Source: a virus
Virus record (IMG/VR): IMGVR_UViG_3300028025_002058
Coordinates: 1-64,000 of that record
Strand: one strand, 5' to 3'
DNA: 64,000 bases
Positions 1 to 23,136 of the stretch are shown piece by piece (within the stretch, counting starts at the first letter, position 1; each line of letters begins with the position of its first letter). The notes under the pieces are model-generated. The model ran no database searches and was not told the origin of the DNA. It saw only the letters and a list, made by a program, of their open reading frames with translations. Position numbers and translations under genes: made by a program.

Positions 1-599
1 TTCCACGCACAATGGTTATTGACCCACAAGGTGCTAATGATGAGACAAAACTTTATCTCATTGTCTGGACTTCACACGACGGCTCTGTTGCTGTTCAGGC
101 TGCCGTTACTCCTGTTCGTGTTGTATGCCAAAACACTTTGAATCTTGCTATGCGTAACGCTAAGCAATCATTCAAGATTCGTCATACACAATCTGTTGAA
201 GGTCGAATTCAAGTTGCTCGTGAGACTCTTGGACTTGCCCTTGGATACTTTGATGAATTCGAGAAGGAAGCGCAAGCGCTTTATTCTCAGTCAATTACTG
301 ACGCAGAATTTTCAAAGTTGATTACAACACTTTACCCAAAGCCTGAAAAGGATTCTAAGGGTGCGCTAAAGAAGTGGGAGAATAAGGTTGTGCTACTTGA
401 TGACCTTTATCATAACTCACCAACTAACGCTACAATCAAGGGCACAAAGTGGGGTGCGTTTAACGCTATCACTGAGCGCTTAGATTATTATCGTTCAGGT
501 CGTGGCAATTCTGAATCACTAATGGCTGGTGCTTCAGGCTTTGACCCAATTCTTACCGCAGAGAAAAATAAAATTCTCAAGTTGGTAAAAGCGTTTTAA
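1..599 (+). CDS. DUF932 / phage-plasmid-like protein, 5' truncated by window edge
   Basis: The frame is open to the left edge (residues PRT precede the first visible ATG at 12), so only the C-terminal part is here. Motifs such as MVIDPQGAND, VRVVCQNTLNLA and the TKWGAFNAITERLDYY segment near the end are typical of the DUF932 (TIGR03299) family, common in actinophages and plasmids. Its biochemical role is unknown; the VCQNTLN stretch and a late helical segment are the conserved landmarks. A tRNA-Asp gene follows 42 bases after the stop. Confidence 0.8.
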   Translation, partial: PRTMVIDPQGANDETKLYLIVWTSHDGSVAVQAAVTPVRVVCQNTLNLAMRNAKQSFKIRHTQSVEGRIQVARETLGLALGYFDEFEKEAQALYSQSITDAEFSKLITTLYPKPEKDSKGALKKWENKVVLLDDLYHNSPTNATIKGTKWGAFNAITERLDYYRSGRGNSESLMAGASGFDPILTAEKNKILKLVKAF

Positions 600-641
600 T
601 TAACGCAAAACCTGAGCAAGTTTTAAAACTGCTCACCATTA

Positions 642-715
642 GGTCCATTAGCTCAGTTGGTTAGAGCGCTACCCTGTCACGGTAGAGGTCGACGGTTCAA
701 GTCCGTTATGGATCG
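642..715 (+). tRNA. tRNA-Asp (anticodon GTC)
   Basis: A full cloverleaf can be drawn. Acceptor GGTCCAT (642-648) pairs with ATGGATC (708-714, one G-T). Anticodon stem CTACC/GGTAG encloses loop CTGTCAC with anticodon GTC. The T arm is GACGG-TTCAAGT-CCGTT. The discriminator is G715 and the next bases are CA, so CCA is not encoded as such. It reads GAC/GAT, frequent in the acidic phage proteins. Confidence 0.93.
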
Positions 716-19434: not shown

Positions 19435-19617
19435 CTACTCTGATTCTTTATTTCTAGCAGGGCTTGTGACTACCCATAGAGCTGTTGTGGCTATAATTCC
19501 ATAGCCTACTATAGTCTTTGCGCTTCCGTCCAAAACGACCCAAGCAATGAACATACCAAGAAGGGTCCAAGCTTGATCAATTAGATCCTTGATTATATTT
19601 TTTAGTATTCTTACCAT
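19435..19617 (-). CDS. Small two-span membrane protein (60 aa)
   Basis: Two hydrophobic segments (WTLLGMFIAWVVL and IVGYGIIATTALWVV) with a charged N-terminus. SD GGAGG before ATG 19617, overlapping the giant upstream gene. Could be a second holin or antiholin, given its place in the lysis cassette. Confidence 0.6.
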   Translation of the reverse strand: MVRILKNIIKDLIDQAWTLLGMFIAWVVLDGSAKTIVGYGIIATTALWVVTSPARNKESE

Positions 19618-22346
19618 TTTCTACCTCCTCGTGAACCTGGTGAATTGGCACCTGAAGCGCCTCCACCAGAACTTCCTCCGCCTCCTGTGCCACCTCCCGT
19701 GGCTCCTCCTGTGGCAACTGCTGCTGCGTTAATTGCAGCACCTGCTGCAACTACTGTAGCAACAACCATATCTGTTGCTTCTTCTCTTTCTTCATCTGAC
19801 ATATCTGCGCCTATACTTCCAAATGCGGCTAATGCTGCTGCTGGATTAGTAAACAATTCTTCTACAAGTGCTCCTGGGTTCTGTAATAATTCTACTTGTG
19901 CTGCAACTGCTGCGGTAATTACAACTGCATTTCCATTTTCATCAGTTCTAACATCTACTGGGGTTGCAGGTGGTAGATCTTTATATTCAATTCCAGATGC
20001 TTTTATATCCGCAGAGCTTACTGCTTCTCCTGGCTTTAAATCTTCAATCAATGTATTGACTACTGCATCTTTTTGTTCTTCAGTTAATTCTTTACCTTCT
20101 TTAGCATCTTCTATTGCTTTATCAAGGGCTTCCTTCTCTGCTTCTTTTGCTTCTGCCTCTGCCTTTAATTTATCTGCCTCTGCTTGCTTAGCCTCTGCTT
20201 CAGCTTTTGCATTTGCCTCTTCTTGTGCCTTAGCTTCTGCTTCAGCTTTTGCTTGCTCTTCTGCTTCTCTTGCAGCCTCTGCTTCTGCTTCTAATCTTTC
20301 TGCTTCCGCTTTTGCATCTGCCTCTGCTTGCTCTTTAGCTTCTTGTTCTGCTTTTGCTGCAGCCTCTTCTGCTGCTAAACGATCTGCCTCTGCTTTAGCT
20401 GCTGCTTCCTCAGCAGCAACTCTATCTGCTTCTGCTTTAGCCGCTGCTTCAGCGGCTGCCTTTGCTTGTGCAGCAGCCTGCGCTGCTGCTTGTTCTGCTG
20501 CTCTTGCTTGTGCTTCTGCATACTCTGCCTCTGCTGCTGCTTGCGCTGCTGCGGCTTCTGCTGCTGCATTTGCTGCTGCTTGCGCTGCTGCTTGTTGCTC
20601 TGCATAATAATTTGTAGTAACCTGTGCAGCATTTGTCATTGCAGTTACCGCTTCATTAACTTTTGTTGTTGCCGTATTCGCAAGGGAGTCTGCTGCTTGA
20701 ACTGCAATTGTTAGGTTTTGATTCGCAGTTGTTAGGTTTTGCTGCTCAGTTGTTAAGTTTGTCTGAGCGGTTGTGAGGCTTGTTTGGGCTACTGTTAGGT
20801 TTTGTTGTAGTGTATTTAGTATAGCTGTGTCGGTAGCTAATGTTTGTTTAGCAGTATTTAGTGTATTTATTTGCTGGGGTGTAGCTGAAGATGTAGAAAA
20901 TTCAGAAGCTGGAATAACTTCCCACCCTGATCCTGTATATCTCATTAAAGATACTGCAGCTCCACCACCGTTTTCGTAATACCACATTTCAAAAGTCTTT
21001 GATATACCAGCCGTTGTCTGAACGTCAGCGGTGGATCCTCCACCACCTTTATCTACCCAGTCATTAATCACAAGCTGTCCGTCAAGATATAGTTTTACGC
21101 CGTCATCTGCTGGTGCTGTTATATACTGTGTTCCTGTAGTTTGTGGTGTCCATAAACCGTCCCATTTAACTTGAAAATCTTCTGTGACTGTAGTCTGTGT
21201 TGTTTTGGTTACTGATATATTGTCTACAATGTAGTAGTCAGCATCTTTTACAATTGTAACTTTATCAATATTTGTTCCAGTTACTGTTTCTGTTGATGTA
21301 TATCCACTAGCCATATTATCTGAGCTTACGTTATTTTCCATTACGCTTGTGCTTGTAGTACCATCTGCATTTATTGTAATAATACTAGTATCACCATTTT
21401 TAGCATAAACACCCATAGTAACTTGTGTTACTGTTCCAGTGTTAGATGGGTTTACATCAATAACAACATTTTCTGAAGGGTTAATTATTGTAAGTGCTGA
21501 TCCACTAACAACATCTGTTTTCCCAGCAGAGTCTGACCAGTTGCCTCCTATAGAAACACCACCAACAGGTTCTACTGAAACAACTGTGGCTGTTCCATTT
21601 GCAAATGTTTCTGTTACCGTAGTGGTTCCACCATTTACTGTTGGCCCTCCGCTACCCCATTGCTCATTAATACCATTCGTATCTTTTCCAGTATAAACAA
21701 CTGTTCCTCCCTGAGATGGAGACCCTGCTGTTCCTGGATTGCTATAAATAGTTATATTTAATCCAGGTGATGTATTTGAATCAACTACTGCTTGTGCTGC
21801 TGCTACAGCAGATTGATCTGAAGCAACTACTGCTGTTTGAGATTCAACTGCTGATGTTGCTGTAGTAACTGTTGCTGTAGATGACTCAACAACTGTTGTT
21901 GCTTGTGCAACTACCGCCGTTTGTGATTCAACAGCCGATGCTGCTGTTGTTGCAACTTGTACTGCTGTCTCTGCAGACTGTATAGCCGTTGTAGCTTCTT
22001 GTACTTTTACTGTAGCATCTGCTACGGCAGTAGCAATCGGCTCTTGTGTTGTTGCAATTGTTGCGGCTTGCTCTGTTGTTGTATTAGGAACATTTGCCTG
22101 AATTGTAGTAGTGATTGCTGCTGCCTGTGTTTCAGCTGCCTGTTGCAATGTTGTTTCTGCTGTTTCAACTTTTGTTGCAACTGTCTCAACTGTAACAGGA
22201 GTGGTTGCTGTGGCGGTATCTGAAGAAGGGTTAGACGGTGTTACTTGAACTGTTGGCTCATCAGCGTTTGCTACGCTTGGCCCAAAAAGGAAAAGCCAGC
22301 CAATTATAAAAAGGCTGGTTAAAAAGTACTTAAACTTTCTAGTCAA
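19611..22346 (-). CDS. Giant exported PA14-domain protein with Ala-rich coil (911 aa), TTG start
   Basis: Signal peptide MTRKFKYFLTSLFIIGWLFL ending ANADEP. Residues about 60-190 are Thr/Val/Ala repeats with a duplicated SAVESQTAVVA unit. A PA14-like carbohydrate-binding domain follows (DFQVKWDGLWTPQTTGTQYI, DDGVKLYLDGQLVINDWVDK, WYYENGGGAAVSL). Then a TolA-like Ala/Glu/Lys coil (about 570-760) and a Gly/Ser-rich end. TTG 22346 has AGGAG eight bases upstream and a 5' hairpin. Host-surface glycan binding is likely; virion or cell surface location is open. Confidence 0.7.
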   Translation of the reverse strand: MTRKFKYFLTSLFIIGWLFLFGPSVANADEPTVQVTPSNPSSDTATATTPVTVETVATKVETAETTLQQAAETQAAAITTTIQANVPNTTTEQAATIATTQEPIATAVADATVKVQEATTAIQSAETAVQVATTAASAVESQTAVVAQATTVVESSTATVTTATSAVESQTAVVASDQSAVAAAQAVVDSNTSPGLNITIYSNPGTAGSPSQGGTVVYTGKDTNGINEQWGSGGPTVNGGTTTVTETFANGTATVVSVEPVGGVSIGGNWSDSAGKTDVVSGSALTIINPSENVVIDVNPSNTGTVTQVTMGVYAKNGDTSIITINADGTTSTSVMENNVSSDNMASGYTSTETVTGTNIDKVTIVKDADYYIVDNISVTKTTQTTVTEDFQVKWDGLWTPQTTGTQYITAPADDGVKLYLDGQLVINDWVDKGGGGSTADVQTTAGISKTFEMWYYENGGGAAVSLMRYTGSGWEVIPASEFSTSSATPQQINTLNTAKQTLATDTAILNTLQQNLTVAQTSLTTAQTNLTTEQQNLTTANQNLTIAVQAADSLANTATTKVNEAVTAMTNAAQVTTNYYAEQQAAAQAAANAAAEAAAAQAAAEAEYAEAQARAAEQAAAQAAAQAKAAAEAAAKAEADRVAAEEAAAKAEADRLAAEEAAAKAEQEAKEQAEADAKAEAERLEAEAEAAREAEEQAKAEAEAKAQEEANAKAEAEAKQAEADKLKAEAEAKEAEKEALDKAIEDAKEGKELTEEQKDAVVNTLIEDLKPGEAVSSADIKASGIEYKDLPPATPVDVRTDENGNAVVITAAVAAQVELLQNPGALVEELFTNPAAALAAFGSIGADMSDEEREEATDMVVATVVAAGAAINAAAVATGGATGGGTGGGGSSGGGASGANSPGSRGGRKW

Positions 22347-22413: not shown

Positions 22414-22599
22414 CTACTTAGGATTATCTGTTTTATAAAAACCAGAACCGTTAAACTTAATACCAAATGATCCGTAATGTCTTTGTAATCTTTTACCGCA
22501 TTCATTGCATAGATAGTTTGGTTCAACAGAAGTTATAGATCTTTCTTTAGACACAATGTCTTCTGGTGAACATTCGCATTTGTATTCGTATATTGGCAT
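22414..22599 (-). CDS. FmdB-type zinc-ribbon protein (61 aa)
   Basis: MPIYEYKCEC...YLCNECGKRLQRH is the FmdB (CxxC zinc ribbon) family signature; the ending IKFNGSGFYKTD is highly typical of actinobacterial members. The first site reads CEC, so one Cys pair is altered. Predicted regulatory or metal-binding protein. SD AAAGGA before ATG 22599, inside a structured leader. Confidence 0.8.
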   Translation of the reverse strand: MPIYEYKCECSPEDIVSKERSITSVEPNYLCNECGKRLQRHYGSFGIKFNGSGFYKTDNPK

Positions 22600-22602
22600 A
22601 AC

Positions 22603-22713
22603 CGTCCTTTAATAATAAGGAGCAGTTTATACACTTGCTCAGGTGTATCCTGCGGGTAGCGGCCCGCATATAATCTGCGACTCCCCAGTGACGGGGTGCA
22701 GACTACTATTATA
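22603..22713 (-). promoter_or_regulatory. Riboswitch-like leader with H-type pseudoknot ahead of the FmdB gene
   Basis: Reverse strand: TATAAT (22713-22708); nested stem TCTGC/GCAGA with CCCC/GGGG inside (22702-22674); hairpin GCGGG/CCCGC (22667-22652); hairpin ATACAC/GTGTAT (22648-22629) whose loop GAGCA pairs with downstream TGCTC (22624-22620), an H-type pseudoknot. The overlapping TCCTT (22621-22617) can instead pair with AAGGA of the SD (22609-22605). The two pairings compete, as in translational riboswitches. No known class is recognised. Confidence 0.5.
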
Positions 22714-22716
22714 CTA

Positions 22717-23136
22717 TTATTTGATTTTGATGGTCTTTGGCTTTTTGTCTTCAGGTACAATCCTAATAATATTAATATTAAGCATACCGTCCTTTAGAGA
22801 TGCACTAGATACTTCCATGTACTCTCCAAGCGCAAATGACCTTGTGAATTTACGTGCAGCAATTCCCTTATGCAAAACTTCTGCATCTGTGACTTCAGTA
22901 ATTTCTCCAGAGATAACCAGTGTTCCGTTATCTACAGATAGATTAATGTCTTCTTTTGTGAATCCTGCAACCGCAAGAGATACCTGATATGTATCTTCGT
23001 CTAGCTTTAATACGTCATATGGGGGATACGATTGGCGTGATGCAGCATTATGCACGTTAGCCATTCTTTCAATTTCACGATTAAAGCCAATAAAAAATGG
23101 GTCCTTAAAAAGGTCCCATGTATATGTTGTTACCAT
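22717..23136 (-). CDS. HSP20 small heat-shock protein (139 aa)
   Basis: Alpha-crystallin domain: PPYDVLKLDEDTYQVSLAVA, GFTKEDINLSVDNGTLVISGE, KFTRSFALGEYMEV with the A-x-x-x-GML-like SASLKDGMLNI loop, and a C-terminal IKI tail in place of IxI. Chaperone holdase that keeps unfolded proteins soluble. Length usual for IbpA-like proteins. SD AAGGAGG sits in a possible temperature-sensitive hairpin. Phage HSP20 genes are known in several T4-like phages. Confidence 0.88.
   Translation of the reverse strand: MVTTYTWDLFKDPFFIGFNREIERMANVHNAASRQSYPPYDVLKLDEDTYQVSLAVAGFTKEDINLSVDNGTLVISGEITEVTDAEVLHKGIAARKFTRSFALGEYMEVSSASLKDGMLNINIIRIVPEDKKPKTIKIK

Follow-up and report, generated by a model that had tools for sequence, protein, structure and literature searches.

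What does a compact pseudoknot do in the leader of a small phage gene? In the window analysed here, the first 64,000 nucleotides (nt) of IMG/VR virus record IMGVR_UViG_3300028025_002058 (65,465 bases), an H-type pseudoknot lies between an Hsp20-like gene and an open reading frame (ORF) for an FmdB-like zinc-ribbon protein, and a sequence-only reading had taken the arrangement for a translational riboswitch. We find that the pseudoknot is a general RNA boundary element absent from Rfam and not the private switch of one gene. The best explanation that sequence comparison offers is a compact 3′-end or intercistronic cap that would stabilise or insulate the upstream RNA, to which we give a probability of roughly 0.4.

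Both helices of the pseudoknot covary

The element is defined by sequence and by covariation in homologues, and its parts in the leader are as follows.

22620-22648, minus strand: H-type pseudoknot
22643-22648, minus strand: S1a, upstream side of stem 1 (S1)
22641-22642, minus strand: loop L1, CU
22636-22640, minus strand: S2a, upstream side of stem 2 (S2), GAGCA
22635, minus strand: L2, a single A
22629-22634, minus strand: S1b
22625-22628, minus strand: L3, AAAC
22620-22624, minus strand: S2b, UGCUC

S1 of this copy is ATACAC/GTGTAT and S2 is GAGCA/TGCTC. Across copies the core reads nnC-CU-[NNNYA]-W-Gnn-nnnAAAC-[URNNN], and the element spans 24-29 bases. The core occurs twice in the window, at 612-634 (plus strand) and 22620-22642 (minus strand), against a chance expectation of 0.04, and the second copy is set between a protein gene and a tRNA.

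12-599, plus strand: DUF932 gene, preceding the second copy
607-634, plus strand: second pseudoknot copy, 7 nt past the DUF932 stop and 7 nt ahead of the tRNA
642-715, plus strand: tRNA-Asp, downstream of the second copy

Contigs carrying native, re-paired and broken versions of S2 were counted across IMG/VR. The paired versions GAGYA/UGCUC and AGGCA/UGCCU were each present in more than 120 contigs, and the broken combinations AGGCA/UGCUC and GAGCA/UGCCU in 11 and 5, respectively. Exchange of the closing A-U of S2 for G-C, which keeps the pairing, gave 6 contigs and exchange of AAAC in L3 for GGAC gave 3; the invariant bases thus matter for more than pairing. For S1, only the loop and stem-2 sequences served to retrieve copies. 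Pairs 2 and 3 were both formed in 96% of the 188 GAGYA-type copies and 99% of the 77 AGGCA-type copies; over a dozen pair combinations occurred at these positions, and the shuffling expectation was about 0.5 per single pair. A relaxed structural scan also recovered re-paired S2 versions with L1 and L3 unchanged, and L2 and AAAC were 6 nt apart in 381 of 439 copies. In an alignment of 46 copies, 96.9% of cells were paired and the covariation score was 0.693 versus 0.234 in shuffles, with 26-39% of cells paired when the alignment was slid; because these copies came from a scan that required S1, the test on 188 and 77 copies is the less biased of the two. The sequence-only reading had named a lack of compensatory changes as its refutation, and both helices are instead rich in them. 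The H-type pseudoknot is thus two interlocked helices supported by covariation, an RNA structure under selection.

A phage and prophage element across bacterial phyla

A search with the core alone gave over 120 IMG/VR contigs, many of them with several copies, and across its variants the element recurs in hundreds. Isolate carriers include phages of Firmicutes, Actinobacteria, cyanobacteria, and Alpha- and Gammaproteobacteria, as well as crAss-like phages. A copy stands ahead of a tRNA in Arthrobacter phage Amigo, Mycobacterium phage Labelle, and Nostoc phage NMeng1, and among isolates copies also occur between RNR and glutaredoxin genes. Lactobacillus phage phig1e and Roseobacter phage SIO1 are carriers as well. 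In Erwinia phage Berlingot (L335, 213-1630), a stretch of 1.4 kb or more that surrounds and follows the pseudoknot lacks annotated genes and is possibly a long noncoding RNA region.

Bacterial genomes across phyla also hold the core, at low frequency, and about one-tenth of these matches have little or no S1 and resemble chance hits. Among the sampled Bacilli genomes, the core was absent from all 199 other than the seed genome; a chromosome-wide role was dropped on this ground, and the pseudoknot is accordingly regarded as a phage or prophage element and not a chromosomal one. A distribution restricted to hosts with RNase J was dropped as well, given the copies in Vibrio and Chaseviridae phages.

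Copies abut stop codons and often precede sites of new RNA ends

Where copies lie between predicted genes (n = 345), both neighbours were co-directional with the pseudoknot in 274 cases and both opposite in 7. Once leaders with the hairpin P1 (described below) were excluded, an ORF stop was found within 25 nt upstream in 221 of 315 copies. The spacing between stop and L1 is cut off sharply at 8-9 nt, and values accumulate at 9-13 nt. The proteins encoded upstream fall into 114 dissimilar groups. TAA accounted for 93 of 142 stop codons ahead of the pseudoknot, the three frames were used 53, 49, and 40 times, and extensions were mostly short. Since TAA predominates and every frame occurs, with no preference for a frame or a leaky stop and no placement at slippery sites, a recoding or readthrough pseudoknot was ruled out. 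In a group of loci from Aminicenantes and others (L204, L212, L226, L230, L246, L260, L316, and relatives), a conserved coding-sequence end, (P/S)R(V/I)AHC-x-(E/K)GC, precedes the pseudoknot.

Downstream, same-strand tRNAs followed 35 of 426 copies versus 3 of 424 upstream (p 3.6e-8), none of them antisense. Most begin 4-9 nt from the pseudoknot, and they include tRNAs for Arg, Asn, Lys, Trp, and Glu besides Asp. Hammerhead-like sequences were located downstream of 8 copies and upstream of 1, with cleavage sites, by inspection, 6-13 nt beyond the pseudoknot. T-runs directly followed 58 of 385 copies versus 7 in shuffled sequences, and promoter-like sites numbered 23 downstream versus 9.5 in shuffled sequences and 12 upstream.

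Other RNAs may adjoin the element. DUF2800 RNA (RF02960) starts about 2 nt or less past the 3′ end of the pseudoknot in L231 (5432-5592) and L255 (2824-2981); it adjoins the pseudoknot without including it and was rejected as its identity. The sequences after the pseudoknot in L258 (5516 onward) and L285 are alike (CTCACC..GTGATCG..CCGAGTGCACA), match no Rfam family, and may represent a ribozyme or another structured RNA.

Comparison with known RNA families

Rfam 15 scans of the window and of the carriers, isolate-phage copies included, returned no family at or above the gathering cut-off for the pseudoknot. A text search of the literature available to us, with the sequence and related terms, found no prior description, although the element may have been listed earlier without a name. 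The pseudoknot class is probably new.

Its closest likenesses differ in defined ways. GP20-b RNA (RF03003) lies upstream of GP20 scaffold or minor capsid genes in Firmicutes phages, and its 5′ half seems to form a related H-type pseudoknot, for example GGUC-AAA-GCA-GACC-UAAAA-UGC (L605) and GCC-CC-GGGCC-GGC-GUAAAAG-GGCC (L604). However, it has neither the invariant CU in L1 nor AAAC in L3 and requires a second hairpin, whereas the present motif stands ahead of many other genes, tRNAs, and ribozymes and has no second hairpin in most copies. Copies that are sequence relatives of GP20-b are rare; the AQ113 copy scored 26.2 bits against that family, below the cut-off of 36.2, and the motif does not share the two-hairpin consensus with its UAAAAg linker. 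The Rfam structure of GP20-b omits S1 of this apparent pseudoknot (GCC/GGC, GGUC/GACC) and marks a single helix (L604 1501-1557, L605 1501-1566).

The coremin exoribonuclease-resistant RNA (xrRNA; xrRNA-C) of plant RNA viruses is similar in having a hairpin of 3-4 base pairs (bp) followed by a GUUAAACU-type spacer, and some coremin-like loops reach 8 nt (PMC10520033). It differs in its YGAD or YGNNAD loop, its required second hairpin, and its replicons, while the loop CUNNNYAW of the present motif pairs with a downstream strand (S2). The combination of YGAD or YGNNAD loop, conserved spacer, and second hairpin that marks coremin xrRNAs was not found here. PreQ1-I riboswitches and luteoviral frameshift pseudoknots are compact H-type folds with a short L1, a 1-nt L2, and an A-rich L3. 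The present motif has the same compact geometry but no sequence in common with them, and is neither placed at slippery sites nor tied to queuosine genes. The T4 gene 32 operator, also an mRNA pseudoknot of a phage close to the border between genes, serves the autoregulation of a single gene; it has another sequence, and its one gene compares with more than 100 gene contexts here.

The FmdB-like leader and the riboswitch question

From the stop of the Hsp20-like gene to the FmdB-like start, the leader comprises 117 bases, and the 121-nt minus-strand region around it folds at -43 kcal/mol (z = -3.4), a stability that none of 200 shuffles equalled.

22717-23136, minus strand: Hsp20-like gene upstream of the leader (PF00011, E 4.9e-19)
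22708-22713, minus strand: TATAAT, -10-like, shortly before P1 and kept in P1 leaders
22674-22702, minus strand: P1 hairpin, UCUGC-A-CCCC-GUCACU-GGGG-AGUC-GCAGA, -12.5 kcal/mol
22651-22668, minus strand: P2 hairpin, UGCGGG-CCGCUA-CCCGCA, -9.7 kcal/mol
22605-22621, minus strand: alternative hairpin UCCUU...AAGGA, which would sequester the Shine-Dalgarno sequence and exclude S2, -3.4 kcal/mol; not general
22617-22621, minus strand: TCCTT, opposite the Shine-Dalgarno AAGGA at 22605-22609
22414-22599, minus strand: FmdB-like zinc-ribbon ORF, 61 aa, start codon 22597-22599 (Zn_ribbon_8, below the Pfam cut-off)

The stems, the pseudoknot, and the anti-Shine-Dalgarno pairing that the sequence-only reading described without naming a strand are all present, together with the Shine-Dalgarno sequence, on the minus strand of this phage contig, and the two competing pairings do have two bases in common (TC at 22620-22621). 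A consensus promoter scan did not list the TATAAT as a two-hexamer promoter. Next to the lysis/endolysin region, the window also encodes a secreted-looking protein of 911 aa with an alanine/glutamate-rich coiled-coil region (19611-22346, minus strand).

Relatives of the FmdB-like protein were collected at 80 loci. In only a few of these (L003, L018, L019, L039) is the leader directly upstream of the FmdB gene; at most others it lies about 450 nt upstream of fmdB, ahead of an MFEYRVKQ-type gene that appears nuclease-like by eye. A link to FmdB or to metals is not supported; in most related phages a different gene follows the leader. P1, including its A/AGUC internal loop, is almost invariant across leaders, beyond what a plain hairpin needs, while P2 has one compensatory variant (UUCGGG/CCCGAA) and is lost in L039. 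In L016, L022, L067, and relatives, a conserved GTCGGGGGAGACAGCGAC...AACTGG upstream of the pseudoknot replaces or accompanies P2 and may be a structured RNA.

A translational riboswitch would set a ligand-dependent pseudoknot against sequestration of the Shine-Dalgarno sequence. S2b is able to pair with that sequence in 31 of 34 P1 leaders, the observation in favour of such a switch, yet the energies run from about 0 to -8.9 kcal/mol, several leaders reach only -0.5 kcal/mol, and among freestanding copies of the same S2 type ahead of a Shine-Dalgarno sequence the pairing is available in 24 of 73. The competition that the sequence-only reading described is therefore possible locally, in the window leader, but is not conserved in strength and is not the general purpose of the module. 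The contexts are not those of a conserved aptamer linked to one family of metabolic genes: more than 100 unrelated genes lie upstream, and in many copies there is no Shine-Dalgarno sequence to control because tRNAs, hammerheads, U-tracts, or promoters follow. The analysis found no ligand-type aptamer or class match, and the earlier statement that no known riboswitch class is recognisable agrees with the window pseudoknot matching no Rfam 15 family. Regulation of this kind by a module so generic is scarcely credible.

Interpretation

In the preferred explanation, the pseudoknot is a sequence-specific module that phages would set at the 3′ boundary of a cistron. The sequences show it on the coding strand, starting where a terminating ribosome would end (L1 9-13 nt past the stop in most copies). 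It is often followed by a place where a new RNA end arises, be it a tRNA, at which RNase P would cut within a few nt, or a hammerhead, a U-tract, or the promoter of the next unit. The short S1, the 5-bp S2, and an A-rich L3 probably placed in the S1 groove could together act as a cap against 3′-to-5′ decay, and the pseudoknot may also, or instead, shield downstream RNA from post-termination ribosomes. In the FmdB-like leader, the same module would have been combined with P1 and P2 in a 5′ leader, where it may also compete with Shine-Dalgarno sequestration. Several observations weigh against this explanation. Many of the tRNA cases are one orthologous DUF932/tRNA-Asp arrangement. Among 112 phage hammerheads that share a single sequence pattern, just 1 has the pseudoknot upstream, so ribozyme ends do not require it, and the idea that all phage hammerheads carry one was dropped. 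The copy in the window leader lies near the Shine-Dalgarno sequence, with about 70 nt between it and the stop upstream, and in Lactobacillus phage jlb1 and Geobacillus phage D6E some copies lie past a terminator-like hairpin and ahead of scaffold/capsid genes, which suits a 5′ role for the next cistron.

That last placement, seen in unrelated Firmicutes phages, also favours a cap at the 5′ end of the downstream RNA that would act like an xrRNA and stop 5′-3′ decay by RNase J, as do the similarity of GUC...GACGUUAAAC to the coremin core GUCCGAAGACGUUAAACUAC and the finding that a flaviviral xrRNA stops bacterial RNase J1 (PMC5760640). However, cleavage at tRNAs and hammerheads would separate the pseudoknot from the RNA downstream, and spacing is tight to the stop but loose to the next start. 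Gammaproteobacteria are not known to have RNase J, and copies in their phages argue against an RNase-J-only function; we consider a 5′ cap unlikely. The tight spacing, with its hard minimum of 8-9 nt and most copies right there, is what would be expected of a barrier that abuts the terminating ribosome and keeps it from scanning or re-initiating into the cistron or structured RNA that follows, and coremin xrRNAs provide a precedent, being able to block scanning ribosomes (PMC10520033). Such a barrier is nevertheless rather doubtful, as copies also occur without a close downstream gene or with a promoter next, and the stop spacing could be merely the closest place that fits. Invariance of the loops and of the closing A-U and C-G pairs goes further than pairing demands and might reflect a binding site for a phage or host protein that controls translation or the processing of RNA, in the manner of gene 32 protein and its pseudoknot, but the carriers are very diverse, no common protein was identified among them, and any host factor would need to be universal; we regard this as quite improbable. 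A transcription terminator or pause signal, with the pseudoknot in place of the terminator hairpin, would account for the excess of T-runs and for some copies with the next promoter close by, yet it is very improbable when 85% of copies have no T-run and many are inside co-directional gene pairs.

A 3′-end or intercistronic cap accordingly stays the explanation we prefer. We propose, tentatively, that the pseudoknot represents an uncatalogued class of small phage RNA, a portable 3′-end cap or cistron boundary present several times per genome in unrelated phages across phyla. Knowledge of the consensus, with its invariant positions and compensatory variants, makes function directly testable with broken and re-paired mutants. 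If the proposal is true, many bacterial viruses would have in common a minimal RNA part of about 24 nt that marks and protects message ends independently of the proteins those viruses encode. It would account for short conserved intergenic gaps in phage genomes, aid operon prediction, and provide a small portable stabiliser or insulator.
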